16,608 nt of DNA from Thiotrichaceae bacterium. GTDB lineage: Bacteria > Pseudomonadota > Gammaproteobacteria > Thiotrichales > Thiotrichaceae. The position numbers were made by a program, and so were the translations under genes. Below are positions 1-16,090 of this stretch, piece by piece. How positions within the stretch are numbered: position 1 is the first letter of the stretch; the number at the start of each line of letters is the position of its first letter. The stretch lies in the NCBI GenBank assembly GCA_027008885.1, contig JALVDQ010000031.1, positions 1 to 16,608 on the forward strand, read 5' to 3'. A model generated the notes under the pieces. The model ran no database searches and was not told the origin of the DNA. It saw nothing but the letters and a program-made list of their open reading frames with translations.

Positions 1-1974
1 TTGAAACTGTTGCCAGATAGTATTAACAACGGCTTCAAAATCACCGTTGGTTTGTTGGTGTATCCAGTTGGCAAAGTCGGCTGTATCTATGTTTTGCTGG
101 TCTAGCTGCAAATTATTACGCCACAGGGGGGTGTTATTAAAAAAGTCTTTGATTTCGTTGCTTTCCAATGCACCAAGTGGGCGTGATAAACGCAGGTATT
201 CTTTGTCGCAATGCTGGTTGTTTTTTTGTGTTTCGCCGAGTATTTTATTGGCTTGCTTTTGGGCGTTATGCACTTGCTCCTGTGTTTCAAGTTGCAAACA
301 AAGTGAATGCAATAACAGTGCCTTTTCAGGCACTTGCCCATCAAATTCTGCACACAATACCTGATTCCAGAGTTCAATCCATTCAGAGAGCTTTTCTTGC
401 CTGTTTCCTTGCATATCTTTGGGAACACGAAAATACCAGTTTAGGGCAATACAACAGTCTTGTTGCAATCCACGTCGTTCCATTTCTTTGTGGAAGATGT
501 CTTTTATGGTCTTTATTCCTGACGGCAAACTCTGACTCATGGTATTGTCGATACTGTCTTCCATGTCATTAAGCGCAGGATTGGGGGCAATTTGAATATT
601 AAAATAATGCGAGATAAAAGGCAGCGGTTGGCGGCTAGAAAACTGCATGTGATGCCTTATTTGAGCAGGTACATCAAAGGGGCAAGCGGCGGCTGTACCA
701 CTGATGGCATAAACCAGCATATCTACGTTATCTAGTGAACGATTTATACCGCCTGATATTCTGTCTTTTAATTCTTCCCGCCCAAGTACGACTTTTAGTA
801 TGGCGACTCGAAATTGACGTTTCAGCTTTTGTTCGCCTTGTGCTATTTCCAGCTTTGGGGTTTGCTGGTTATTCCAGACAATGCTTTGCAAGCGGCGTTG
901 TTGCGGGCTTTGCTGTTTTATCGTAGCGGTAATATCGGTGTTTGTTGCGAATTTTTCCAGCGTATTGAAGAGTTGATCTTCAAGGGCATGAATTTTGTTG
1001 TCGTGAGTGGCGTTTAACATCCACAGCAGACTGGTATTTTTGATAAGCTTGATGGGGTAATCAGTGACAGCATCATCAGACAAGAGGCTAATAATAACAA
1101 GGGGGTGGATACTGTTTTGCTCTAAACATTGTGCTAATTCATCAAGTGTAATGATATTGTTACCTGTGTTGTCGGCATCCAGTATGATCTGCCCCTGTTT
1201 ATAACGGGCATAGAGGTAGATAAAATCAGGTTTTATCACTTTTATTTCATTAAATAGCAGTTTAGGCGTATTTACGCGAGGGATAAAACCTTGTACGTTC
1301 AGCTCACTTTCTAAATGACTTTGTACCAGAGAGTAGTGTTTGTCGGCGGTTAGCTCGTGTTGATGTCCGGTTGGTATCACGATCAATGGGTTATCAATAT
1401 TTTTATGGCTGTAACCTGCGTAGCTTTCTGGTGAACAGGGGCTGACTTCGATCATCCACTTGTTATCAATCAGTTTTTCATCTGGTTTGTTAAAGTCAGG
1501 CAAGCAATGCCACGGTAATCGCCCCAGTGCTTTATCATCGGTCATTATGCGCAGGTGGACTGTCTCACCGCTGGCAGAGGCTTGTTTAATATCGTCAAAT
1601 TCAAACAGTGTTTCTGCAATAGCTTGCCAGATTGACGGCGCATCTGGATGACTGTCTTCAGGAAGCTGTTTAACAAGAAGAGTTTGCCGCCTGTTTTCAC
1701 TTTGGGAGAAAGTAATGCTTTCTCCTTCTTGATAACTTGCGGTGATATTTAACCAGTTTTTTTGTTTAATGGGTGAGGGATGGGACGGGCGCGGCTTGTC
1801 GATTGGCTTGCTGTTATTGTTTTTTTCTTTATTTTTTTTGTGACGTTCGATTATTGATCCCAATGCATCAATGCCCTGAATAATGCCTGCGAATGTTGCT
1901 ATGCCTAATATCACTTTCCATACAAACTCTAAAGAATCTAAAGAATTAATAAGCTCTGTAAAAAACTCAACCAT
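1..1974 (-). CDS. Membrane-anchored protein with degenerate CHAT-like and possible inactive STAND-like domains (3' end outside window)
   Basis: This reading frame has no stop from the ATG at 1974 down to base 1, giving 658 visible residues with the C-terminus beyond the left edge. The start has a G-rich stretch (GGGGGT) about ten bases upstream, and an in-frame stop lies further up at 2053-2055. Residues about 17-35 are hydrophobic and are followed by a basic stretch (RHKKNKEK), which suggests one membrane anchor with the rest cytoplasmic. Residues about 105-330 resemble the CHAT caspase-like fold: LGRLPWHCLPD near 150-160, then PDFIYLYARYKQG at 249-261, then PLVIISLLSDD at 291-301. Active CHAT proteases carry His in the second block and Cys in the third; here neither is present, so it looks inactive. 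From about 390 the pattern (VVLGREELKD, then ISGTAAACPFD at 424-434 without a GK[ST] loop) suggests an inactivated STAND-type domain. That second assignment is tentative. The existence of the gene is much surer than its function. Confidence 0.8.
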   Translation of the reverse strand, partial: MVEFFTELINSLDSLEFVWKVILGIATFAGIIQGIDALGSIIERHKKNKEKNNNSKPIDKPRPSHPSPIKQKNWLNITASYQEGESITFSQSENRRQTLLVKQLPEDSHPDAPSIWQAIAETLFEFDDIKQASASGETVHLRIMTDDKALGRLPWHCLPDFNKPDEKLIDNKWMIEVSPCSPESYAGYSHKNIDNPLIVIPTGHQHELTADKHYSLVQSHLESELNVQGFIPRVNTPKLLFNEIKVIKPDFIYLYARYKQGQIILDADNTGNNIITLDELAQCLEQNSIHPLVIISLLSDDAVTDYPIKLIKNTSLLWMLNATHDNKIHALEDQLFNTLEKFATNTDITATIKQQSPQQRRLQSIVWNNQQTPKLEIAQGEQKLKRQFRVAILKVVLGREELKDRISGGINRSLDNVDMLVYAISGTAAACPFDVPAQIRHHMQFSSRQPLPFISHYFNIQIAPNPALNDMEDSIDNTMSQSLPSGIKTIKDIFHKEMERRGLQQDCCIALNWYFRVPKDMQGNRQEKLSEWIELWNQVLCAEFDGQVPEKALLLHSLCLQLETQEQVHNAQKQANKILGETQKNNQHCDKEYLRLSRPLGALESNEIKDFFNNTPLWRNNLQLDQQNIDTADFANWIHQQTNGDFEAVVNTIWQQFQ

Positions 1975-2050
1975 ATTGTAACTACCCCCGCTGATATATG
2001 GTTCTGCATGGTAGCTTATATCAATGGCTTCAACAATTAGGGAGAACTGT

Positions 2051-2090
2051 TTTTAACAAAATTATCCTTTGGACACAGGATTAACAAGAA
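2051..2090 (+). repeat. Left copy of an imperfect direct repeat flanking the toxin-antitoxin region
   Basis: The core at 2061-2087 (starting ATTATCCTTT and ending ATTAACAA) matches 3012-3038 at 24 of 27 positions. The match extends weakly on both sides (TTTTAACAA against TTTTAATAA upstream, and an AGTGGAGC/AGTGAGC end). The two copies lie about 950 bp apart in the same orientation and enclose the toxin-antitoxin operon and two gene remnants. Confidence 0.6.
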
Positions 2091-2186
2091 GTGGAGCAAA
2101 ATGAAGCTGATAGTGCAGCAGCAAGAGCTGCAACAGCCTTTCATCAAAGGGCTATTGATGAAGCGGAAGCATTGATGAAATCATAA
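2091..2186 (+). pseudogene. Short open frame, probably the 3' remnant of a lost gene
   Basis: Read from the GTG at 2091, 31 codons end at TAA 2184-2186. The predicted peptide is Ala/Glu-rich and helix-forming (EADSAAARAATAFHQRAIDE in its middle), unlike random translation. An in-frame stop just upstream at 2082-2084 means that nothing longer survives. There is no good ribosome site. An overlapping frame from the ATG at 2101 gives only 24 residues. I do not recognise the family; it could equally be a chance frame. Confidence 0.25.
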
Positions 2187-2243
2187 TACATGATTGTATG
2201 CCGACTCTTGAGAGTTTGCTTTTAGGTAAGCACGGGAACGGTT

Positions 2244-2546
2244 TTAATCTGCTCTTTTTAAAGTTCCCTCAGCGTAACGATGAACAATAGAGGAAATCAA
2301 TGTTTGATAGCCTATACCGTCTCGATTAGCTAAACGCTTTATTTTTTGAATATCTCGCTCATATAGTCGTATATTTAGAGCCTTCTTTTTTAATGAATTT
2401 TTAGCGGCTTGTTCAAGTTCTAGCTTCCGTTCTTCAAAATCGGGACTTCTTTTAAGTTCGCCACGCTCTACCGCTTCGGCTAACTCTCTTTCTTCGTCGT
2501 TAAGATAAGAAAGATCAATGTTTTGTTCTGATTTTTTCATAGTCAT
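2244..2546 (-). CDS. Ribbon-helix-helix antitoxin, BrnA/CopG-like
   Basis: A 100-residue protein, acidic in its N-terminal half and basic further on. Residues about 56-95 (ALNIRLYERDIQKIKRLA followed by GIGYQTLISSIVHRYAEG) match the ribbon-helix-helix pattern: a short beta strand, then two helices with the GYQTL turn typical of BrnA-type antitoxins. RHH antitoxins dimerise, bind the operator of their own operon and neutralise the partner toxin through the other end of the protein. The gene starts 3 nt after the stop of the toxin gene, so translation is probably coupled. A second ATG at residue 3 is an alternative start. The toxin-before-antitoxin order fits BrnTA-like modules. The role is inferred from family pattern and context. 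Confidence 0.75.
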   Translation of the reverse strand: MTMKKSEQNIDLSYLNDEERELAEAVERGELKRSPDFEERKLELEQAAKNSLKKKALNIRLYERDIQKIKRLANRDGIGYQTLISSIVHRYAEGTLKRAD

Positions 2547-2549
2547 AGT

Positions 2550-2825
2550 CTATTTAGATAAGTACATTTTTTGATATTTTCTGCTAGGGTAAAGTGTTTT
2601 TAAGAAAAAACCTCCCTTTTTTTGTTTCACATACGGCACACAATAAGCATAACCATCAACTTCAACAACCATAATTCTTTGGTGTCCGTATTTTTCAATA
2701 TTTGGATGTTGAATATCATCAAGTAAACAACCAGAAGCAATAGAAAATTCTATATCTTCAAAAGATACCCCCGTTTTTTCTGTAACAAGTTCGTTTTTTT
2801 TGTTACTCCAATTTAAAGTTATCAT
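2550..2825 (-). CDS. BrnT-like toxin of a type II toxin-antitoxin pair
   Basis: A 91-residue protein. The N-terminal half follows the BrnT pattern (NWSNKKNELVTEKTGVSFED at 5-24: W near the start, then K-x-GVSFED). The middle strand QRIMVVEVDGYAYCVPYV corresponds to the region where BrnT carries its RelE-fold core strands, and the C-terminus LYPSRKYQKMY corresponds to the ISARRA-x-ERRLY end of the family. BrnT toxins are RelE-fold ribonucleases that inhibit translation; this assignment is by pattern only. It is the first gene of a two-gene leftward operon, with a promoter and operator at 2853-2880 and a very short leader. No clear Shine-Dalgarno sequence precedes the ATG. The pair is visibly more A+T-rich than the leu genes and is flanked by repeats and gene fragments, consistent with acquisition by transfer. 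Confidence 0.7.
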   Translation of the reverse strand: MITLNWSNKKNELVTEKTGVSFEDIEFSIASGCLLDDIQHPNIEKYGHQRIMVVEVDGYAYCVPYVKQKKGGFFLKTLYPSRKYQKMYLSK

Positions 2826-2852
2826 ATCATGTCAAATGTATTGTATACCTAA

Positions 2853-2880
2853 ATGATACCGATTAAGGTATCTCTGTCAA
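2853..2880 (-). promoter_or_regulatory. Promoter of the toxin-antitoxin operon
   Basis: On the minus strand, a perfect -35 box TTGACA (2875-2880) and a -10 box TATCAT (2853-2858, 5 of 6 consensus) are separated by 16 nt. The predicted start is about 20 nt upstream of the toxin ATG. This is one of the clearest sigma-70 type promoters in the window. Confidence 0.7.
2855..2872. promoter_or_regulatory. Palindromic operator overlapping the TA promoter
   Basis: GATACC-6-GGTATC is a perfect inverted repeat that fills the promoter spacer and overlaps the -10 box. The half-site is echoed by GGTATAC at about 2843-2849. A palindrome placed here is what an autoregulatory RHH antitoxin needs. The regulator is inferred. 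Confidence 0.6.
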
Positions 2881-2893
2881 ATAAAAAAGTACC

Positions 2894-2983
2894 TTAATGT
2901 AAGCGTTCGCCGTAAAGATCGAGGGCGTTCTCAATAGTTTCCGCACAAAACTTCTGAAAGTATTTAACCGTCTGCTTTATGAC
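2894..2983 (-). pseudogene. C-terminal fragment of an unidentified gene
   Basis: The minus-strand frame ending at TAA 2894-2896 encodes 29 plausible residues (core YFQKFCAETIENALDLYGER) with no start codon. It continues only into the truncated GTAGCCCG-type repeat at 2984 and then meets a stop. It therefore looks like the 3' end of a gene cut by the repeat. The family is not recognised. Confidence 0.35.
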
Positions 2984-3002
2984 AGCCCGTATGAAGCCTT
3001 GC
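2984..3002 (+). repeat. Truncated copy of the GTAGCCCGTATGAAGC repeat
   Basis: These 19 bases are identical to the outer part of the inverted repeat arm at 12336-12354 (reverse complement) and close to 12202-12220 and 13874-13892. The copy stops where the direct repeat at 3003 begins, so 3002/3003 is a recombination junction. Confidence 0.6.
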
Positions 3003-3040
3003 TTTTAATAAATTATCCTTTCGATACAGAATTAACAAAG
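3003..3040 (+). repeat. Right copy of the imperfect direct repeat
   Basis: Partner of 2051-2090. It begins exactly where the truncated repeat ends. From here to the leuC start, about 160 bases hold no recognisable gene. Confidence 0.6.
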
Positions 3041-3126
3041 TGAGCTTGCACAGAAGTTTTTATATTCCTATTGGTTATCAAAAACATGAAAATAAACGAT
3101 TATAGTTATATGCAATAAGCGTGTAA

Positions 3127-3143
3127 ACTGTTTGAAAAACAGT
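3127..3143. other. Small perfect hairpin in the leuC leader
   Basis: ACTGTTT-GAA-AAACAGT has two 7-base arms and a 3-base loop, about 60 bases before the leuC start. It has no T-run directly after it and no leucine-rich leader peptide nearby, so I would not call it an attenuator. It could be a binding site or a fortuitous palindrome. Confidence 0.3.
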
Positions 3144-3202
3144 CAATGGCTGTTTTCGCAAATGCAGTAGGGCTTCATATAGGGCTTATAGAGGAAAATA
3201 AT

Positions 3203-4669
3203 ATGGCAGAAAAAATGGCAGGAAAAACACTTTACGATAAATTATGGGATGCACATGTGGTGCGTGAAGAGGATGATGGCACGGCATTGTTGTATATCGA
3301 CCGTCATCTGGTGCATGAGGTGACATCACCGCAGGCGTTTGAAGGGCTGCGCATGGCGAATCGCAGTTTGTGGCGGGTGGAGTCGATTGTGGCTGTTCCT
3401 GATCATAATGTGCCAACCACGACGGCTGATCGCGGCAATGGCACGGCGGGTATTTCTGATCCGGTGGCTAAAATTCAGGTTGAGACTTTGGATAAAAATT
3501 GTCAGGAATTTAAAATCAATGAATTTCACATGGATGATATTCGCCAGGGCATTGTGCATGTGATTGGACCAGAGCAGGGCGCGACTTTGCCGGGCATGAC
3601 GGTGGTTTGTGGTGATTCGCATACGTCTACGCATGGTGCTTTTGGTGCGCTGGCGCATGGTATCGGCACGTCAGAAGTTGAGCATGTGATGGCGACGGGT
3701 TGTTTGATTCAGAAGAAAATGAAAAACATGCTGATTAGTGTCGATGGCAAAGTTGGCGAAGGTGTCACCGCCAAAGATATTGTGCTTGCGATTATTGGCG
3801 AGATTGGTACGGCAGGCGGCACGGGCTATGCGATTGAATTTGCGGGTGAAGCAATTCAGGATTTGTCGATGGAAGGGCGCATGACGGTGTGCAATATGGC
3901 AATCGAAGCGGGCGCGCGCGCTGGCATGATTGCGGTGGATGATACAACCATTGAGTATGTGAAAGGTCGTCCTTACTCGCCCTCGGGTGAGGTTTGGGAG
4001 AAAGCGGTTGCAGCATGGCAAGATTTAAAGTCAGATGATGATGCCGAGTTTGATGAAATTGTGCGAATCCATGCGGGCAGCATTGAGCCTCAAGTGACCT
4101 GGGGGACATCGCCAGAAATGGTATTGCCAATTAATGCCAATGTGCCTGACCCTGCGGATGAAGCTGATCCTGTTAAAAGCAAGGCTATTGCGGATGCGCT
4201 GGCTTATATGGGGCTGGAAGCTGGGCAAGCGATTAATGAAATCAAAATAGACAAGGCTTTTATCGGCTCTTGTACCAATTCCCGAATTGAAGACATGCGC
4301 GAGGCTGCGGCTGTGGTCAAGGGAAAAAAAGTGGCTGATAATGTCAAACTGGCGATGGTCGTGCCTGGCTCTGGTCTGGTGAAGAAACAGGCGGAAGAAG
4401 AAGGTCTGCACAAGATTTTTATTGAGGCAGGTTTTGAGTGGCGTGAACCCGGTTGTTCGATGTGTTTGGCGATGAATGCTGACAGACTGGAGCCTCAAGA
4501 GCGTTGTGCTTCAACATCAAACCGCAACTTTGAAGGTCGTCAGGGGCAGGGTGGTCGTACTCATCTGGTTAGCCCGGCGATGGCGGCAGCGGCTGCGATT
4601 TATGGTCATTTTGTTGATGTAAGAAATGTGGATGCTGGTGTAAATGCAAAAAGCGGAGGAGAAGCATAA
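3203..4669 (+). CDS. leuC: 3-isopropylmalate dehydratase large subunit
   Basis: LeuC pairs with LeuD to isomerise 2-isopropylmalate to 3-isopropylmalate in leucine synthesis, using a [4Fe-4S] cluster in the cytoplasm. The 488-residue protein opens with the family hallmark ([13 protein letters not shown], then [20 protein letters not shown]). It has the substrate-binding [20 protein letters not shown] block and the three cluster cysteines, Cys357 in GSCTNSR and Cys418 and Cys421 in PGCSMC. The length is slightly above the usual 465-475. I chose the ATG at 3203 because it has GAGGA 8 bases upstream and gives a family-like N-terminus. The frame stays open back to an ATG at 3146, but that one has no ribosome site. 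Its stop overlaps the leuD start by one base (TAATG), so the two subunits are translationally coupled. Confidence 0.97.
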
Positions 4670-5307
4670 TGGAAAAGTTTACAGTACATAAAGGTATCGT
4701 TGCGCCACTGGATCGCTCCAATGTGGATACTGATGCGATTATTCCCAAGCAATATTTAAAGTCGATTAGCCGTACAGGGTTTGGTCCGACTCTGTTTGAC
4801 GACTGGCGCTATGTGAAAGCGGGTGAGCCGGGCATGGATCATTCCAAACGTGAAAAAAACGCGGATTTTGTCTTGAACCAGCCACGTTATGAAAATAGCT
4901 CAATCTTGCTGGCGCGTGAAAATTTTGGCTGTGGGTCATCGCGTGAACACGCGGTCTGGGCACTGGAAGACTTTGGTTTTCGGGCTGTAATCGCGCCAAG
5001 TTTTGCCGATATTTTCTTTAATAATAGTTTTAAAAACGGTCTCCTGCCGATTGTTTTAAAAGATCAGGAAGTGGATGAGTTGTTCAAGTTGGTTGAAGCG
5101 AATGAAGGCTATGAGTTAACAATTGATCTTGAAAAACAGAAAGTAGTAACGCCGGATGGCAAGGAATATTCTTTTGAGGTAGATGAATTTAGAAAATATT
5201 GTTTGCTAAATGGACTTGACGATATTGGTCTGACACTGCAACATGCGGACGATATTCGGGCGTATGAAAAGCGCAGGAAAGAAGAAGCGCCCTGGTTATT
5301 TGCATAG
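4669..5307 (+). CDS. leuD: 3-isopropylmalate dehydratase small subunit
   Basis: LeuD is the swivelling small subunit of isopropylmalate isomerase and works as a heterodimer with LeuC. The 212-residue protein has the family start ([20 protein letters not shown], then [13 protein letters not shown]). It also has the conserved [15 protein letters not shown] segment at about residues 86-100, the active-site loop that contacts substrate, and [20 protein letters not shown] after it. The length is normal for proteobacterial LeuD (about 200-215). GGAGGAG upstream of the overlapping ATG, inside leuC, acts as the ribosome site. The last base of its TAG stop is also the first base of the 91-bp inverted-repeat element that follows, so that element sits right against the end of the gene. 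Confidence 0.97.
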
Positions 5308-5430: not shown

Positions 5431-5597
5431 ATACCCATCCCCCCCTGTTTTTACACTTTTTTATTTGTTGGAAATGTCGGGTTACGCTATCGCTAACCTG
5501 ACCTACAATATTCTTATAAGCATTCGTAGCTTGGATTAGCGATAGCGTAATCCAACACAAATGTTAGAAATATATAAAAAACAGGGGGGATGGGTAT
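5431..5597. mobile_element. 167-bp palindromic element bounded by TACCCATCCCCCC / GGGGGGATGGGTA
   Basis: The left end (ATACCCATCCC...CTGTTTTT) is the inverted match of the right end (AAAAACAGGGGGGATGGGTAT), differing by one C/G in the homopolymer run. Inside, 5475-5506 and 5526-5557 form a second inverted repeat (26 of 32 matching) built on TTACGCTATCGCTAA, a motif that resembles known dispersed intergenic repeats. The whole unit could fold into a long hairpin. It lies between leuD and leuB and encodes nothing. The terminal TA on each side would fit a TA-targeting transposase, but that is inference. Confidence 0.65.
5475..5557. repeat. Inner inverted repeat with TTACGCTATCGCTAA core
   Basis: Two 32-base arms (5475-5506 and 5526-5557) are inverted copies with six mismatches, separated by 19 bases. 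Several mismatches would still pair as G-T in RNA. If transcribed, this would form a stable hairpin between leuD and leuB. Confidence 0.6.
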
Positions 5598-8083: not shown

Positions 8084-10972
8084 GTGAATAAGAAAGCCTT
8101 GAGTCTAGCCGTATGTTTAGCTATGGCTTTGCCGACAGCATCCAGGGCCTTAAGTCTTGGTGATATTGAATCAGATTCAAGTCTGAATCAGCCCTTTCGT
8201 GGCACAATCAAGCTGCTCTCGACAAGTCTTGCCGAAGCAAGTTCTCTGCGGGTGCGCGTGGCTCCTCCAGCCGTTTTTAATCGCGTAGGAATAGACAGAC
8301 CCGCTTTTCTCAACAACATCCGCTTCAGAACGACGGTTAAAGATGGCAAGCCTGTTATTCTGGTAACATCCAGTCAGCCAATTAAAGAACCATTCTTAAA
8401 CTTTTTGCTGGAAGTTAGCTGGCCAAATGGACAGCTCCTTAAAGAATATACGGTATTACTTGACCCTCCTGTTTTAATCCAGCCTGATACCGCAATTGCA
8501 AGCAATACAGTAGGGGTTCGTGAAGAACCGGGAAACCAGGTTTATAGTCCTGCTATCACCCCTGTGCAAGCTCAAAGACAACAACCCAAACGTGTTGTAC
8601 GAAATGTTGCATCACAATCAGGATTGCGCAGACCAGGTCCTCCGCGACGTGCTTCGGCATCTGCATCCAGAGTACGAACCTATCGCGTAAGAAGTGGCGA
8701 TACTCTTTATAAAGTTGCCCGCAAGCTAGGCTATAAGGGAGTTCGTAACGAGCAGATGGTAATGGCTCTTTACAATAAGAATAAACATGCTTTCAGCCGG
8801 CGCAATATGAATCTTCTGAAAGCGGGTGCCCGCCTGGCGCGTCCTTCCTATCAGGAAGCCAGATCAATCAGTTCACGAAAAGCGAAAGCACAAATCCTTG
8901 CCCAGGCGAGAGAGTGGAAACAATGGCGTGCAGGCGCTGTTGCAAAATCCGCGGCAAAACGCAAACATCAAGTTGCTGCAAACACAGCCAGGAAGCCCGC
9001 TCATGTTGAGGTCATGGGCAGCAATCAATCTGTAGATGCGATTAAAACTCCTGGTAGTGGAGGCTCTTCTGCTACAGTCAGAGAGCTGAAAAAGCAACTT
9101 GCCCAGACTAGAGAAGCATTAACTGCCAGGGAAAAAGAGAACGAAGATTTAAAGTCTCGTATTTCTGAGCTGGAATCACTACTGCGCAAGAAAAACAAGT
9201 TAATTACCCTGAAAAGTGAACAATTAGCCCGCTTGCAGGAAAAAATGGGCAAGGCGGGAGTTGCCGGGTCAACTGCGTCCGAAATAGATGCGCTTGGCGA
9301 TAATTCAGAGAACGGAGTGGCTACAGAGCCTGTTGCTTCCACCAGTATTGATGATGAAGGCACGGATATTAACCGCCAGGTTGCTGATGAACAATCAAAG
9401 CATCGTGGTGAAATTCTGCGTAATGAGCAGGATCAGCAGGCGATTGTAAGCGATACTGCAACAGCCTCCCAGGATGTTAGCGATAATGAACCTAGCCCGT
9501 TTAAGCAAGACAATGTAGATGAAGGTGACTCGCTTGATATTATGGGTCTGTTAGGTTCACCTGCTGCCATGGGCATTGGTGGCGGTACCTTGTTAGCCCT
9601 GTTGGGTGGGCTCTGGTTTATGCGCCGTCGCAAGCAAGGCGAGGATGGTTATCAGGAGCCGATTGATTTTGATCTGGACGATCATAGCAGTGACGTGACT
9701 TTTGACGATTCTTCAGTAGAGACAGGTTTGGACTCGGAATCCACACCTTTTGATGACCATGAATTTGATGATTCTGATACCATCATCAACAAAGAGTCTC
9801 ACCCTCATAAAGAGGACATCACCAAAGGCAATGAGCAAGAAGATATTTTACAGGAAGCTGATGTCTACATTGTCTATGGTCTGCATGATCAGGCAGAATC
9901 CGAGCTAAAACGCGCAATTGACAATGACCCTAAAAATCTGGCTTATCGTGCAAAACTGCTTGAAAACTATAAAGCAGCTGGAAACAAGGAAGCATTTGAA
10001 GCCGAAGCAAAAGCCTTCATGGATCTGGATGTTGATGGTAAAGACGCCTATCTGGATGATATAACAGAATGGGGAAAAGCACTCTTGCCTGAAAGCAAAC
10101 TGTTTGGCAGCGAAGGCTTAAAAGCAGCGGGTGCGGCTGGTGTAGCCATGGTAGCAGGTACAGCATTGGCAAATTCTGGTGACGATGCTACCGAGAATAA
10201 AGGTCAGATAAGCCAGGATGGAGCAGACTTGTCAGAAGTGGATGTGGATGATAGCAGCCTGGAAGACCTGAATATTGATGATCTCCTCTCGGAAGATACA
10301 GATGACATTGATGATCTTGCCAGTTTGAATGACGATCTGGATATAGATATAAAAGACCTGGAAGAGCTGGATGATCTCGATGATGAAGTAGACCTCGATG
10401 ATCTGGACGATCTTGATCTGGATATCGCGGATGAATTTAACTTTGATCTCAATGAAGATAATAAAGATAAAAAATCTGCTGAAGCTAAAGAGCCTGAGAG
10501 CTCCAGTGAAGAACTTGATCTTGAAATGGCATCAACAGAAAAATTGCTTGAATCCGCAAAAAAAGAAAATGCAGATAATATTAACTTCCTTGATCTGGAT
10601 GAAGCTGAAGAGTCTGATTCAGAAAAGCCTGATGAGGCAAATCTTGACTTGGCAAATCTCAATCTAAACCTGGATTCTGAAGATTTTGAAAAAATCATGC
10701 CAAAGGATAATGCCTATAAAAAGCAGGAAGTAGAAAATCCTGAAGAAGACAATCTACTCGCGGATTTTGACGATAATATATCCTTCCTTGATCTGGATAA
10801 TGATTCAGAAGTAATCGAAGAAACCCAGATAGATACCAAACTGGATCTTGCCAGAGCCTATATTGACATGGGCGATATTGAAGGCGCCAGAAGCACGCTT
10901 GAAGAAGTATTGCAGGAAGGTAGCGACGAGCAAAAGCGCGAGGCAGAAAACCTGCTTCATCAAACAGGGTAA
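8084..10972 (+). CDS. fimV: FimV/HubP-type pole-organising protein
   Basis: FimV proteins sit in the inner membrane at cell poles, bind peptidoglycan and support type IV pilus assembly, twitching and polar protein placement. The 962 residues show the full family layout. A signal peptide (MNKKALSLAVCLAMALPTAS, cleavage near residue 22) precedes the FimV N-terminal domain (LSLGDIESDSSLNQPFRGTI). A LysM domain occupies about 199-255 (TYRVRSGDTLYKVARKLGY), a coiled coil about 332-388, and a transmembrane helix about 489-513 followed by RRRK. A TPR-like unit lies at about 593-645 (YIVYGLHDQAESELKRAI), a very acidic Asp/Leu-rich stretch at about 714-790, and the conserved C-terminal FimV unit at about 920-962 (KLDLARAYIDMGDIEGARS). 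The start is GTG, with AGGGGA 7 bases upstream. The gene is flanked by terminators, so it is probably monocistronic. The asd-fimV-truA order matches other gammaproteobacteria. Confidence 0.93.
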   Translation: MNKKALSLAVCLAMALPTASRALSLGDIESDSSLNQPFRGTIKLLSTSLAEASSLRVRVAPPAVFNRVGIDRPAFLNNIRFRTTVKDGKPVILVTSSQPIKEPFLNFLLEVSWPNGQLLKEYTVLLDPPVLIQPDTAIASNTVGVREEPGNQVYSPAITPVQAQRQQPKRVVRNVASQSGLRRPGPPRRASASASRVRTYRVRSGDTLYKVARKLGYKGVRNEQMVMALYNKNKHAFSRRNMNLLKAGARLARPSYQEARSISSRKAKAQILAQAREWKQWRAGAVAKSAAKRKHQVAANTARKPAHVEVMGSNQSVDAIKTPGSGGSSATVRELKKQLAQTREALTAREKENEDLKSRISELESLLRKKNKLITLKSEQLARLQEKMGKAGVAGSTASEIDALGDNSENGVATEPVASTSIDDEGTDINRQVADEQSKHRGEILRNEQDQQAIVSDTATASQDVSDNEPSPFKQDNVDEGDSLDIMGLLGSPAAMGIGGGTLLALLGGLWFMRRRKQGEDGYQEPIDFDLDDHSSDVTFDDSSVETGLDSESTPFDDHEFDDSDTIINKESHPHKEDITKGNEQEDILQEADVYIVYGLHDQAESELKRAIDNDPKNLAYRAKLLENYKAAGNKEAFEAEAKAFMDLDVDGKDAYLDDITEWGKALLPESKLFGSEGLKAAGAAGVAMVAGTALANSGDDATENKGQISQDGADLSEVDVDDSSLEDLNIDDLLSEDTDDIDDLASLNDDLDIDIKDLEELDDLDDEVDLDDLDDLDLDIADEFNFDLNEDNKDKKSAEAKEPESSSEELDLEMASTEKLLESAKKENADNINFLDLDEAEESDSEKPDEANLDLANLNLNLDSEDFEKIMPKDNAYKKQEVENPEEDNLLADFDDNISFLDLDNDSEVIEETQIDTKLDLARAYIDMGDIEGARSTLEEVLQEGSDEQKREAENLLHQTG

Positions 10973-10996
10973 AATCTGTTTGCTTTAAACTGACCT

Positions 10997-11023
10997 AAAA
11001 AGCCAGCGTTTGCTGGCTTTTTT
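10997..11023 (+). terminator. Rho-independent terminator of fimV
   Basis: AAAAAGCCAGC and GCTGGCTTTTT form an 11-bp perfect stem with a GTTT loop, ending in a run of Ts, 24 bases after the fimV stop. Confidence 0.88.
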
Positions 11024-11138
11024 ATATGGCGAAGTAAATTTTCTGATGTAAGGGATTATCGGTAGTAGCTCTTTACAAAAACAACGCGCTCTATCTAATT
11101 GTGGGATTCTTAAGCGTGAAAAGTATATACTGGCAACT

Positions 11139-11921
11139 ATGACAAAATATGCTGCCTGTATTGAATATAATGGAACCGCCTATTGTGGCTGGCAACGCCT
11201 TGCTCATGCTGCCTCCGTGCAGGAAGAAGTCGAAAAGGCGCTGTCATTTGTTGCCAATCAGACAATCAACCTGAGCTGTGCGGGCAGAACGGACAGTGGC
11301 GTACATGCCATCGGTCAGGTTGCCCATTTTGAATCAAGCGCGAACAGAAGCACAACAGCCTGGCGCATGGGCTGCAATGCCAATCTTCCCGATGATATTG
11401 TATTGCGCTGGATACAGCCCGTAAACGACAGTTTTCATGCGCGCTTTTCAGCAATCTCACGTCGTTATCGCTATATTATATTAAACCATCAAACAAGACC
11501 CGCCATACTCAACAATCGGGTTTGCTGGTTCCGTGATTCACTGGATGAGAAGCTAATGGATTCCGCAGCAAAACGCTTATTAGGTGAAAATGATTTTTCA
11601 AGTTTCAGAGCTTCTGCCTGCCAGGCAAAACACGCGATGCGCGAATTACAGGAAATCAATGTAAGCAGGGAAGGGAAATATATATACATCGACGTAGTAG
11701 CAAACGCCTTTTTGCACCACATGGTACGAAATATTGTTGGAAGCCTGTTTGAAATAGGGATAGGAAACAAGCCAGTTACATGGTTTGATGAATTATTGTC
11801 AATAAAGGACAGAACACAGGCAGGCATTACCGCCCCCGCCTGTGGTCTCTATTTTGTGAGTGTCAGGTATCCAGATGAATATCAACTTGCCGAAGCAGAA
11901 GCTCCTTTTTTTGGGCTTTAA
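11139..11921 (+). CDS. truA: tRNA pseudouridine(38-40) synthase
   Basis: TruA isomerises uridines 38, 39 and 40 in the anticodon arm of many tRNAs. The 260 residues match the usual length. The catalytic aspartate is Asp52 in CAGRTDSGVHAIGQVAHF. Other family blocks are IEYNGTAYCGWQR near the start (Cys where His is more common), FHARFSAISRRYRYIILN in the middle, FRASACQAKHAMR, and FLHHMVRNIVGSLFEIG near the C-terminus. No good Shine-Dalgarno sequence precedes the ATG, but the N-terminus fits the family exactly. TATACT lies about 13 bases upstream, so the mRNA could have a very short leader; I could not find a matching -35 box. It follows the fimV terminator, so it needs its own promoter or read-through. 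No trpF follows, unlike in Pseudomonas. Confidence 0.96.
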   Translation: MTKYAACIEYNGTAYCGWQRLAHAASVQEEVEKALSFVANQTINLSCAGRTDSGVHAIGQVAHFESSANRSTTAWRMGCNANLPDDIVLRWIQPVNDSFHARFSAISRRYRYIILNHQTRPAILNNRVCWFRDSLDEKLMDSAAKRLLGENDFSSFRASACQAKHAMRELQEINVSREGKYIYIDVVANAFLHHMVRNIVGSLFEIGIGNKPVTWFDELLSIKDRTQAGITAPACGLYFVSVRYPDEYQLAEAEAPFFGL

Positions 11922-11961
11922 ACTGATTTAATCCAGTAAGGACATGATGAAACAGTTGAAC

Positions 11962-12202
11962 TACCCACCCCCCCTGTTTTTTATATATTTTTCCGCGATC
12001 GTACAAACCACAGAGAACATATGCGTATCGCAGCCTGCACATTAATAATATCTGGTCGCATTAATATTAGTGTCATGGACTTACGCAGTTTCTAGTAAAT
12101 TGCTATAGCTTTTATCAAGAGACAAGAATATGCAAAAGTAAGACCTGACCCGTTATCTCCAGAGTGCAGAGGAAAAAATAGGTAAAAACAGGGGGGATGG
12201 GT
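11962..12202. mobile_element. 241-bp element bounded by inverted TACCCA(T)CCCCCC ends
   Basis: The left end (11962-11987) reads TACCCACCCCCCCTG then T/A-rich. The right end (12183-12202) is its inverted match ending GGGGGGATGGGTA. These are the same ends as in the 5431-5597 element, but the interior is unrelated and carries no gene. It lies between the convergent truA and radA genes. The right end runs directly into the GTAGCCCG repeat, sharing GTA. Confidence 0.6.
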
Positions 12203-12356
12203 AGCCCGTATGAAGCCCCGCGGAATACGGGGAATATGTGCAACATATTCCAGGTGGGCAGGCACATTGTTATTTAGAGATGGCGGTTACCTATTGATAC
12301 CAAGGCGTGTAATTGACCCTTGTCCCCCGTATTCCGCAAGGCTTCATACGGGCTAC
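12200..12356. repeat. Large inverted repeat with GTAGCCCGTATGAAGC arms
   Basis: The outer arms GTAGCCCGTATGAAGCC... (12201-12232) and its inverted match (12324-12356, ending GGCTTCATACGGGCTAC) pair over about 32 bases with a few differences and enclose about 90 bases with no gene. This motif (agcccgtatgaagc...gcggaatacggg) resembles a common dispersed intergenic repeat of proteobacteria. It could form a long cruciform or RNA hairpin between truA and radA and may serve as a bidirectional terminator, although it has no T-run. Confidence 0.65.
12231..12251. repeat. Perfect palindrome inside the inverted repeat
   Basis: GGAATATGT and ACATATTCC are perfect 9-base arms around GCA. The left arm begins where the outer arm ends. 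Confidence 0.5.
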
Positions 12357-12411
12357 CTTGCTGGAGCATCTGACATTTTGCCCAAAGAACTGAGGGGTTG
12401 AGGGTGAAAGC

Positions 12412-13782
12412 TTAGTCCAGAAACTCCAGTGCTTCTTCGAGGCGACGCGCTGTCATAATTTTCATGCCTTTAATAGCTTGTTGCGGCTTGTTTCCTTGTG
12501 GGATTATGGCGCGTTTAAAGCCATGCTTGGCGGCTTCCTTGAGGCGTTCTTCACCATTCGGAACAGGGCGGATTTCACCTGCCAGACCAATCTCGCCAAA
12601 AACTACCAGATCCGCAGGGTGGGGGTGATTTCTAAAACTTGAAAGTGCTGCCAGAACCAGAGGCAGGTCAGCAGCGGTTTCAGTGATTTTCATGCCGCCG
12701 ACGACATTAATAAAGACATCCTGATCAAACATTGAGATACCGCCATGACGGTGCAATACCGCCAGCAACATGGCAATGCGGTTTTGCTCCAGCCCCAGCA
12801 CGACGCGCCGTGCCTGCTGCCCGTGGCTTTCATCAACCAGCGCCTGTACCTCAACCAGAAGCGGACGAGTGCCTTCGCGCGTCACCATAATAACGCTACC
12901 CGGCACAGGTGTTTCGTGACGTGAGAGGAAGATCGCAGAGGGATTACTCACGCCGATTAAACCCCGCTCGGTCATGGCAAACACACCTAGCTCATTGACC
13001 GCGCCAAAGCGGTTTTTTACCGCGCGTAAAATGCGATAACGCCCACCGGGGTCGCCTTCAAAATAAAGCACGGTGTCAACCATGTGCTCCAGCACCCTTG
13101 GTCCGGCGAGTGTGCCTTCCTTGGTAACGTGTCCGGCAATGAACAGTGAGGTATTGGTTTGTTTGGCAAAACGTGTCAGCCTGGCGGTGGCTTCGCGTAC
13201 CTGACTCACCGAACCCGGAGCAGAGGTAAGTTCTTCGGTATGAATCGTCTGAATCGAATCAATCACCATGACATCGGGTTTTTCCAGCGAGGCGTGTTCA
13301 ATAATGCGCTCGACACAGGTTTCGGTGAGCAGACGTAGCGGTTCAGGGTTTAATTGCAGCCGTTTGGCGCGCATTGATACCTGCTGCAAGGATTCTTCAC
13401 CAGTAACATACAAAGAACGCAAACTGCCAAGGCTCGCCATGGTCTGAATCAAAATGGTGGATTTGCCAATGCCGGGGTCACCACCAATCAGAGTGACCGA
13501 GCCTTGCACCAGCCCGCCACCCAAAACACGATCCAGTTCGGATATGCCCGTGGTAGCGCGTGGAATCTGTTTTAGATCAATCTCGTGGATGGATTTAATC
13601 TGGCTAACATCGCCTGAATAACTTTGAAAACGGCTGCTTTTTGGTGTAGCAGAGGTACTGCTTGATTGGACAACACTTTCTTCCAGCGTATTCCATGCCT
13701 GACAATCATTGCACTGACCATTCCATTTGGAGTGAATCGCACCGCAGTTTTTGCAGACAAACTGTGTTCTGATTTTAGCCAT
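12412..13782 (-). CDS. radA: DNA repair protein RadA (Sms)
   Basis: RadA is a RecA-like, DnaB-like ATPase that promotes branch migration of recombination intermediates. All parts are visible in the 456 residues. A four-cysteine zinc finger (Cys10, Cys13, Cys24, Cys27 in CKNC and CNDC) opens the protein. Walker A is GDPGIGKST at 101-109 and Walker B is VMVIDS at 171-176. The RadA signature KNRFG is at 256-260, and the C-terminal Lon-like domain contains FINVVGGMKITETAADLPLV and FGEIGLAGEIRPV. The length is standard. The only ribosome site is weak (TTAAG shortly before the ATG). The sequence immediately upstream is repeat DNA, so its promoter must lie in or beyond the repeats. It is convergent with truA. 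Confidence 0.97.
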   Translation of the reverse strand: MAKIRTQFVCKNCGAIHSKWNGQCNDCQAWNTLEESVVQSSSTSATPKSSRFQSYSGDVSQIKSIHEIDLKQIPRATTGISELDRVLGGGLVQGSVTLIGGDPGIGKSTILIQTMASLGSLRSLYVTGEESLQQVSMRAKRLQLNPEPLRLLTETCVERIIEHASLEKPDVMVIDSIQTIHTEELTSAPGSVSQVREATARLTRFAKQTNTSLFIAGHVTKEGTLAGPRVLEHMVDTVLYFEGDPGGRYRILRAVKNRFGAVNELGVFAMTERGLIGVSNPSAIFLSRHETPVPGSVIMVTREGTRPLLVEVQALVDESHGQQARRVVLGLEQNRIAMLLAVLHRHGGISMFDQDVFINVVGGMKITETAADLPLVLAALSSFRNHPHPADLVVFGEIGLAGEIRPVPNGEERLKEAAKHGFKRAIIPQGNKPQQAIKGMKIMTARRLEEALEFLD

Positions 13783-13808
13783 GGCTTAATTGAGCAGAAA
13801 AAAAGTAT

Positions 13809-13829
13809 GAAAAACAGGGGGGATGGGTA
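13809..13829 (+). repeat. CAGGGGGGATGGGTA repeat, copy 5
   Basis: GAAAAACAGGGGGGATGGGTA lies about 27 bases upstream of the radA start and is followed at once by the heptamer array. No inverted partner is adjacent. Confidence 0.7.
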
Positions 13830-13833
13830 TCTG

Positions 13834-13965: not shown

Positions 13966-13997
13966 CCAAAAATATATAAAAACAGGGGGGATGGGTA
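13966..13997 (+). repeat. CAGGGGGGATGGGTA repeat, copy 6
   Basis: The 31 bases 13966-13996 are identical to the reverse complement of 16060-16090, including an AATATATAAAAA stretch before the G-run. A short heptamer run follows it. Confidence 0.8.
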
Positions 13998-14001
13998 GTA
14001 G

Positions 14002-16055: not shown

Positions 16056-16059
16056 AGCA

Positions 16060-16090
16060 ACCCATCCCCCCTGTTTTTATATATTTTTGG
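16060..16090 (-). repeat. CAGGGGGGATGGGT repeat, copy 7
   Basis: An exact 31-base inverted match to 13966-13996. It lies between the msrA 3' end and the corB start. Confidence 0.8.

Follow-up and report, generated by a model that had tools for sequence, protein, structure and literature searches.

Organization of the locus

The window, which comprises the entire 16,608-base contig C31 of its source genome (G000; 494 contigs, 2.97 Mb), begins with a gene that occupies positions 1 to 1974 of the minus strand and encodes an N-terminal membrane helix, a pseudo-CHAT domain, and an inactive STAND/AAA+ domain. We refer to this gene and its product as component 1. Base 1 is the contig end, where the gene loses its C terminus, leaving 658 of 667 codons; the full-length database copy (P0001, 667 amino acids) lies on a 7.3-kb contig. 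The first-pass annotation had reported an uninterrupted frame of 658 codons, which we recovered and assigned to the minus strand together with all three sequence blocks cited there. A chance open frame can be rejected, since the 658 codons contain no stop, compared with 26 to 58 stops in each of the other five frames, and database relatives exist. The frame is thus a real gene, with at least 14 relatives besides P0001 at 32 to 82% identity.

The remaining genes, named by eye as leuC, leuD, leuB, asd, fimV, truA, radA, a CorC-like protein gene, and msrA, are what we take to be housekeeping genes, and Rfam gave no match at the gathering threshold anywhere in the window. In the spaces separating the larger genes, a MITE- or REP-like repeat of about 31 nucleotides (core AAAAACAGGGGGGATGGGTA) is present in seven copies, some of them forming inverted pairs (5431 to 5462, 5567 to 5597, 11961 to 11994, 12174 to 12204, 13800 to 13830, 13968 to 13998, and 16057 to 16090). 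At 2244 to 2825, a toxin-antitoxin pair matches the BrnT, BrnA, and CopG models, in each case below the curated cutoff; it is flanked by a 36-nucleotide direct repeat (83%; 2052 to 2087 and 3003 to 3038), and its sequence context looks as if it had been inserted between component 1 and leuC. This pair had been read as support for an accessory defense region, a role that we do not retain, given the subthreshold matches and its absence from the operon order of relatives as read by eye.

Pseudo-CHAT and inactive STAND domains

Residues 61 to 378 (841 to 1794, minus strand) are predicted to adopt a CHAT/separase-like caspase fold. Intact CHAT domains have a catalytic His in their GHG motif, and Arg257 (1204 to 1206, minus strand) occupies the aligned position; this column contains R, Q, K, C, P, T, or S and lacks His in all 21 relatives. 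Leu298 (1081 to 1083, minus strand) marks the approximate site of the catalytic Cys, a column that holds L, I, T, R, or V and no Cys in any relative, and that was positioned by eye on the strand because hhalign left a gap there; the hhalign comparison used three intact CHAT domains as the reference and reached a probability of only 34%. No aligned relative has His at residues 254 to 258 or Cys at 296 to 299 (0/21 each), and the nearest misses in the core are a His at 253 in locus L005 and a Cys at 295 in L024. An active CHAT domain under a better alignment was therefore rejected: the replacement of both residues, first noticed in the single sequence, extends to the whole family, and the 21-member alignment restored neither.

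The inactive STAND/AAA+ domain (1 to 837, minus strand) covers residues 380 to 658, reaching 667 in the full-length copy, and is predicted to have a STAND/AAA+ fold with eroded Walker motifs, as in iSTAND. Its degenerate P-loop, SGTAAACPFDVPAQ (residues 425 to 438; 661 to 702, minus strand), lacks the Lys-Ser/Thr pair, and a GxxxxGK[ST] motif is absent from all 21 relatives when searched over the whole proteins, in agreement with the earlier reading of this site. The AlphaFold2 model of the domain alone has a pLDDT of 86.6 and a pTM of 0.84, and in its comparison with known structures by VIA, 50 of the 50 matches listed are AAA+ or STAND proteins by title. Foldseek TM-scores were low for both models (0.12 to 0.23 of the query for one, 0.18 to 0.39 for the STAND/AAA+ model), so the fold assignments lean on VIA-align. 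When the family profiles were searched against PDB sequences, each gave a single match, at an E value of 1.5. None of the 21 members matches Pfam iSTAND (PF19995) in hmmscan at E values up to 10 with the HMMER filters on, and VMAP, presumably represented in Pfam, is not among their Pfam matches. An iSTAND reference sought within the phylum was set aside: matches occurred in 2 of 398 genomes, of which a single one (G432) passed the cutoff, and there the match lies, by sequence reading, inside a McrB-like GTPase.

The degenerate P-loop ranks among the best conserved parts of the core, which has 40 invariant columns in the 21-row alignment, the initiator Met counted. Residues G426, C431, P436, and Q438 of the P-loop are the same in all 21 relatives, as are C507, W513, and C559; the domain thus keeps the same three cysteines (431, 507, and 559) throughout the family. 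Such conservation of a dead site would fit a retained switch or docking site, not decay. The proposal of CHAT-like and STAND-like folds, both devoid of catalytic residues, is supported by structure prediction, alignment, and motif counts alike.

Exchangeable N termini on a common core

The membrane helix spans residues 17 to 35 (1870 to 1926, minus strand), with a mean hydropathy of 1.77, acidic residues before it, and basic residues after it. Nine of nine members of this clade have an N-terminal hydropathy peak of 1.77 to 2.74, compared with at most 0.74 in the other 12. The hydrophobic anchor pointed out earlier is therefore present, but it is just one of four exchangeable modules, as the N termini of the 21 proteins comprise a membrane helix (9), TIR (8), CHAT (3), or SEFIR (1). 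Known effector domains thus occupy 12 of the 21 N termini; TIR, SEFIR, and intact CHAT domains are typical immune and cell-death effectors. The N-terminal CHAT domains (P0010, L007, and L024) retain GHG and a Cys, unlike the core.

The core tree implies four changes of N-terminal label overall, where three is the minimum possible, and the CHAT rows require three changes; the membrane-helix rows, including the window protein, form one side of a branch supported at 97/96. All 21 rows were kept, with P0009 represented in the alignment by the L005 reading of its gene, which has the longer frame, and because L007, L006, P0013, L021, and L024 have long branches, the order of the effector exchanges is unsure. 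Judged from these sequences, the N-terminal modules have likely been exchanged on one core.

Distribution of the family

At least 15 relatives, including the window's own copy, were found in 5.8 billion proteins when the 7,996 candidates sharing most words were scored, and a profile search of proteins added no relatives to those already known. With the source genome counted, the core was detected in 4 of 39 near-relative genomes by a single-protein search and, by alignment searches, in 7 of 63 genomes from the order and 1 of 369 sampled from the class. A first scan of genome contigs with the single protein gave no match; five core-bearing contigs belong to two Thiotrichaceae MAGs, one Thiothrix MAG, and one gammaproteobacterial MAG, the last with two contigs. 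Searches of plasmids, phages, and viral contigs yielded no core relatives.

Operon partners

In relatives, component 1 is followed by a MoxR-type AAA+ ATPase gene and then by a gene for a membrane protein, which we call component 3. The MoxR-type gene is next downstream in all seven loci with sequence there (L005, L006, L007, L021, L022, L023, and L024, from six genomes), where it overlaps component 1 or starts at most 138 bases away. Four of the seven ATPases were scanned against Pfam, and all four matched AAA_5 above and bpMoxR below the cutoff; the remaining three were identified by reading the sequence (GEPGTGKT). L005 is the sole membrane-helix locus with a readable MoxR gene, inside which its contig stops. 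Component 3 is third in six of six loci, measures 638 to 1,310 amino acids (L007 is cut by the contig at 1,069), and has three hydrophobic segments in every case. Its C terminus is an FGE-sulfatase domain at four loci (L007 contig-cut), GH19 at one, and neither at one. The first 70 or so residues resemble the CoxE helical domain (P = 5.5e-5, compared with 0.14 to 0.72 for unrelated pairs), a value that is optimistic, as three of seven CoxE-family frames (eight loci given) were chosen after the helical N terminus had been seen. For the vWA part, comparison with CoxE vWA gave a P of 0.096, while an unrelated pair reached 0.037, and no Pfam vWA match was found in the component 3 proteins scanned. 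The N-terminal region of component 3 occurs in at least 17 database proteins, query counted, among the best 7,992 candidates; by precomputed Pfam assignments, 12 of these carry FGE, one carries GH19, and four carry neither.

A second, short FGE gene lies close by in L006, L022, L023, and L024. In L024, component 3 (8947 to 12879) ends in two GH19 chitinase-like stretches in place of FGE, making it a possible sensor of cell wall or chitin. The same operon is flanked by CHAT/STAND-like and caspase-like proteins (378 to 4876 and 14678 to 18001), recognized by reading their sequences, which suggests a defense island. Short in-frame inserts (VGASPAGD, ESPAWQAPT, or close variants) occur in the operon genes of L021, L022, L023, and L024, and repeated stretches of about 34 bases mark the insert sites in L023; these are perhaps a protein-inserted repeat, similar to Rickettsia palindromic elements.

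These downstream partners in relatives support the conflict-system setting proposed in the first-pass annotation. It had also placed partners to the left of base 1; MoxR and component 3 do lie downstream in relatives, yet neither was found in G000, where the MoxR search, run without a positive control, gave no match, where FGE domains elsewhere in the genome were all that was seen of component 3, its N terminus not being found, and where C31 has no overlapping contig at its end. For the window copy, the partner genes are thus presumed from relatives, one membrane-helix locus (L005) included. Contig C128 of G000 (L011, 1 to 3892) carries two FGE genes separated by a transposase-like fragment and close to a PIN-like toxin pair, both recognized by eye; the two genes are 73% alike over 690 columns and were rejected as a repeat pair of a diversity-generating retroelement (DGR).

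DGR signature

L023 contains three copies of a 133-base repeat, two forming the 3' ends of the FGE genes and a third lying between them, outside either gene. Relative to this third copy, taken as the template, one FGE-gene copy differs at 18 positions, all of them adenines, and the other at 16, of which 15 are adenines; adenines account for 29 of the 133 template bases. A bAvd gene (E = 9.4e-20) and a 118-residue reverse transcriptase (RT) fragment (RVT_1, E = 0.0094, below the cutoff) are found at the same locus, the former beside the repeats. The adenine-specific template/variable pair at the 3' end of the target was recognized at L023 alone, and no template copy appeared in the inspected parts of L006, L022, and L024. 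Relatives of the L023 RT fragment are present in five of the seven core-bearing genomes and lacking in G000 and G013. These are the two membrane-helix genomes; bAvd or RT was found in neither, and the DGR link may be absent from this clade. bAvd was detected at an E value of 1e-3 in 4 of 7 core-bearing genomes versus 6 of 56 others (P = 0.0095), and at the curated cutoff in 2 of 7 versus 5 of 56 (P = 0.17); that it is commoner in core-bearing genomes is suggestive only.

Proposed mechanism

We consider the window protein to be, with good probability, the first-gene product of a three-gene, MoxR-centered conflict operon of Thiotrichaceae, in which it would have an effector-bearing output role more than that of the regulatory or adaptor half originally suggested. 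Component 1 would present an exchangeable N-terminal effector (TIR, CHAT, SEFIR, or here a membrane helix) on a fixed pseudo-CHAT and inactive STAND core, and the three products would act as a complex. With three membrane passes, the FGE end of component 3 would be outside the cell if the CoxE-like end is inside, and this lectin-like C-terminal end would bind a foreign ligand. The ATP-driven MoxR ring would then remodel the core of component 1, whose nucleotide-free STAND and pseudo-CHAT domains would serve as latch and scaffold; release or oligomerization of these domains would gather the N-terminal effectors, activating TIR, SEFIR, or CHAT, with cell death as the putative outcome. In the window's clade, clustered membrane helices would instead damage the membrane, a step that we hold with less assurance than the output role itself.

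The direction of the signal could be reversed within the same operon, component 1 being the sensor whose core binds nucleic acid or protein of the invader, and MoxR with the CoxE-like/FGE protein being the output. We regard this as unlikely, although it is the arrangement proposed for iSTAND and iSTAND2 in the sections compared (PMC7159879, PMC8195603), as well as for VMAP systems, and the core is indeed the constant part of the family, with its 40 invariant columns in 21 members. Against it, DGR variation, at the one locus where it was found, sits on the FGE end of component 3, the core motifs, including the former P-loop, are invariant, and known effectors head 12 of 21 proteins. Kaur et al. 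proposed, in the parts of their accounts consulted, that the third component of MoxR ternary systems senses and the vWA partner carries the effectors (PMC7159879, PMC8195603); Dore et al., in the corresponding part of theirs, proposed the DGR target as the sensor and the N terminus of the third component as the actor (PMC10907252). With a DGR-varied end on component 3 and known effectors on component 1, the latter direction fits better.

It is improbable that the window gene lacks working partners in this genome, whether as an orphan or as what is left of such an operon. The gene does sit at a contig end, next to the weak toxin-antitoxin pair, and its partners were not found in G000; the frame is nevertheless intact over 658 codons and full length on the 7.3-kb contig, full-length relatives share 82, 66, and 59% identity with it, and repeats such as a DGR pair would often break assemblies. 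Slightly less probable again is a nonimmune role, in which a MoxR chaperone module would serve kin recognition, adhesion, or the assembly of a complex at the cell surface. The assembly roles of MoxR-CoxE pairs (in the part of PMC7159879 compared), kin recognition as an alternative raised in PMC10907252 (likewise in part), and the GH19 chitinase-like domains of one component 3 can be adduced for it, but it accords poorly with the presence of TIR, SEFIR, and intact CHAT domains on this one core.

With the output role preferred here, the window family could provide the output piece of DGR-linked MoxR systems. In Thiotrichaceae, Thiothrix among them, a single conserved core joins TIR, SEFIR, CHAT, and membrane modules, with the same MoxR gene in seven of seven readable loci, and which component senses and which kills becomes directly testable through effector swaps on that one core. 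More tentatively, the family may be a further ternary third component beside VMAP, iSTAND, FtsH, beta-propeller, iSTAND2, and TERNS3, descended from a caspase/CHAT-STAND fusion in which both enzymes died and which became fixed as a MoxR-operated release switch, with effectors repeatedly grafted onto it. The single membrane helix of the window's clade would then be a bacterial counterpart of resistosome pores, and the trigger in sister clades a hypermutated antigen receptor outside the inner membrane.

Relation to known systems

The system had been thought undescribed; in the portions of the reports compared, both the MoxR ternary kind (PMC7159879, PMC8195603) and its DGR-linked form (PMC10907252) are already on record. 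A description of the pseudo-CHAT and inactive-STAND core was not found in the main texts of the open-licence literature, as far as the portions searched extend; inactive STAND domains themselves are described in BREX (in the part of PMC12839542 consulted). SAVED-CHAT, TPR-CHAT/Csx29, separase, and caspases differ from the window core, which lacks the His-Cys dyad and has other partners. VMAP systems, in the part of PMC7159879 compared, share the three-component grammar, the exchangeable N-terminal module, and the FGS/DGR link, whereas the window core is predicted to be CHAT-like plus STAND-like. TERNS3 is likewise the 5' gene of a MoxR system and mostly TIR fused, but is described as a novel alpha+beta domain in the part of PMC8195603 at hand, and was compared with the window core by description only.

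Dore et al. report, in the parts compared, MoxR genes and long-extension targets with varying neighbor genes (PMC10907252). For the loci of DGR clade 5A that combine MoxR with long-extension CLec targets, the effector-gene core is not described in those parts; the RT pieces at L006 and L023 are C-terminal fragments. Among the closest known systems are the iSTAND/iSTAND2 MoxR-vWA systems of Proteobacteria, which, in the sections of PMC7159879 and PMC8195603 compared, combine a MoxR ATPase, a third component in which TIR, caspase-like, or other modules precede an inactive STAND domain at the N terminus, and a vWA partner with a CoxE-type helical N terminus, FGS domains, and, in some examples, membrane segments. 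Unlike iSTAND, the window family has no PF19995 match (0/21), carries a fixed pseudo-CHAT domain ahead of STAND, and has a component 3 with no recognizable vWA motif. The family thus resembles iSTAND by fold and grammar, not by profile, and the fixed pseudo-CHAT domain is its distinguishing part.
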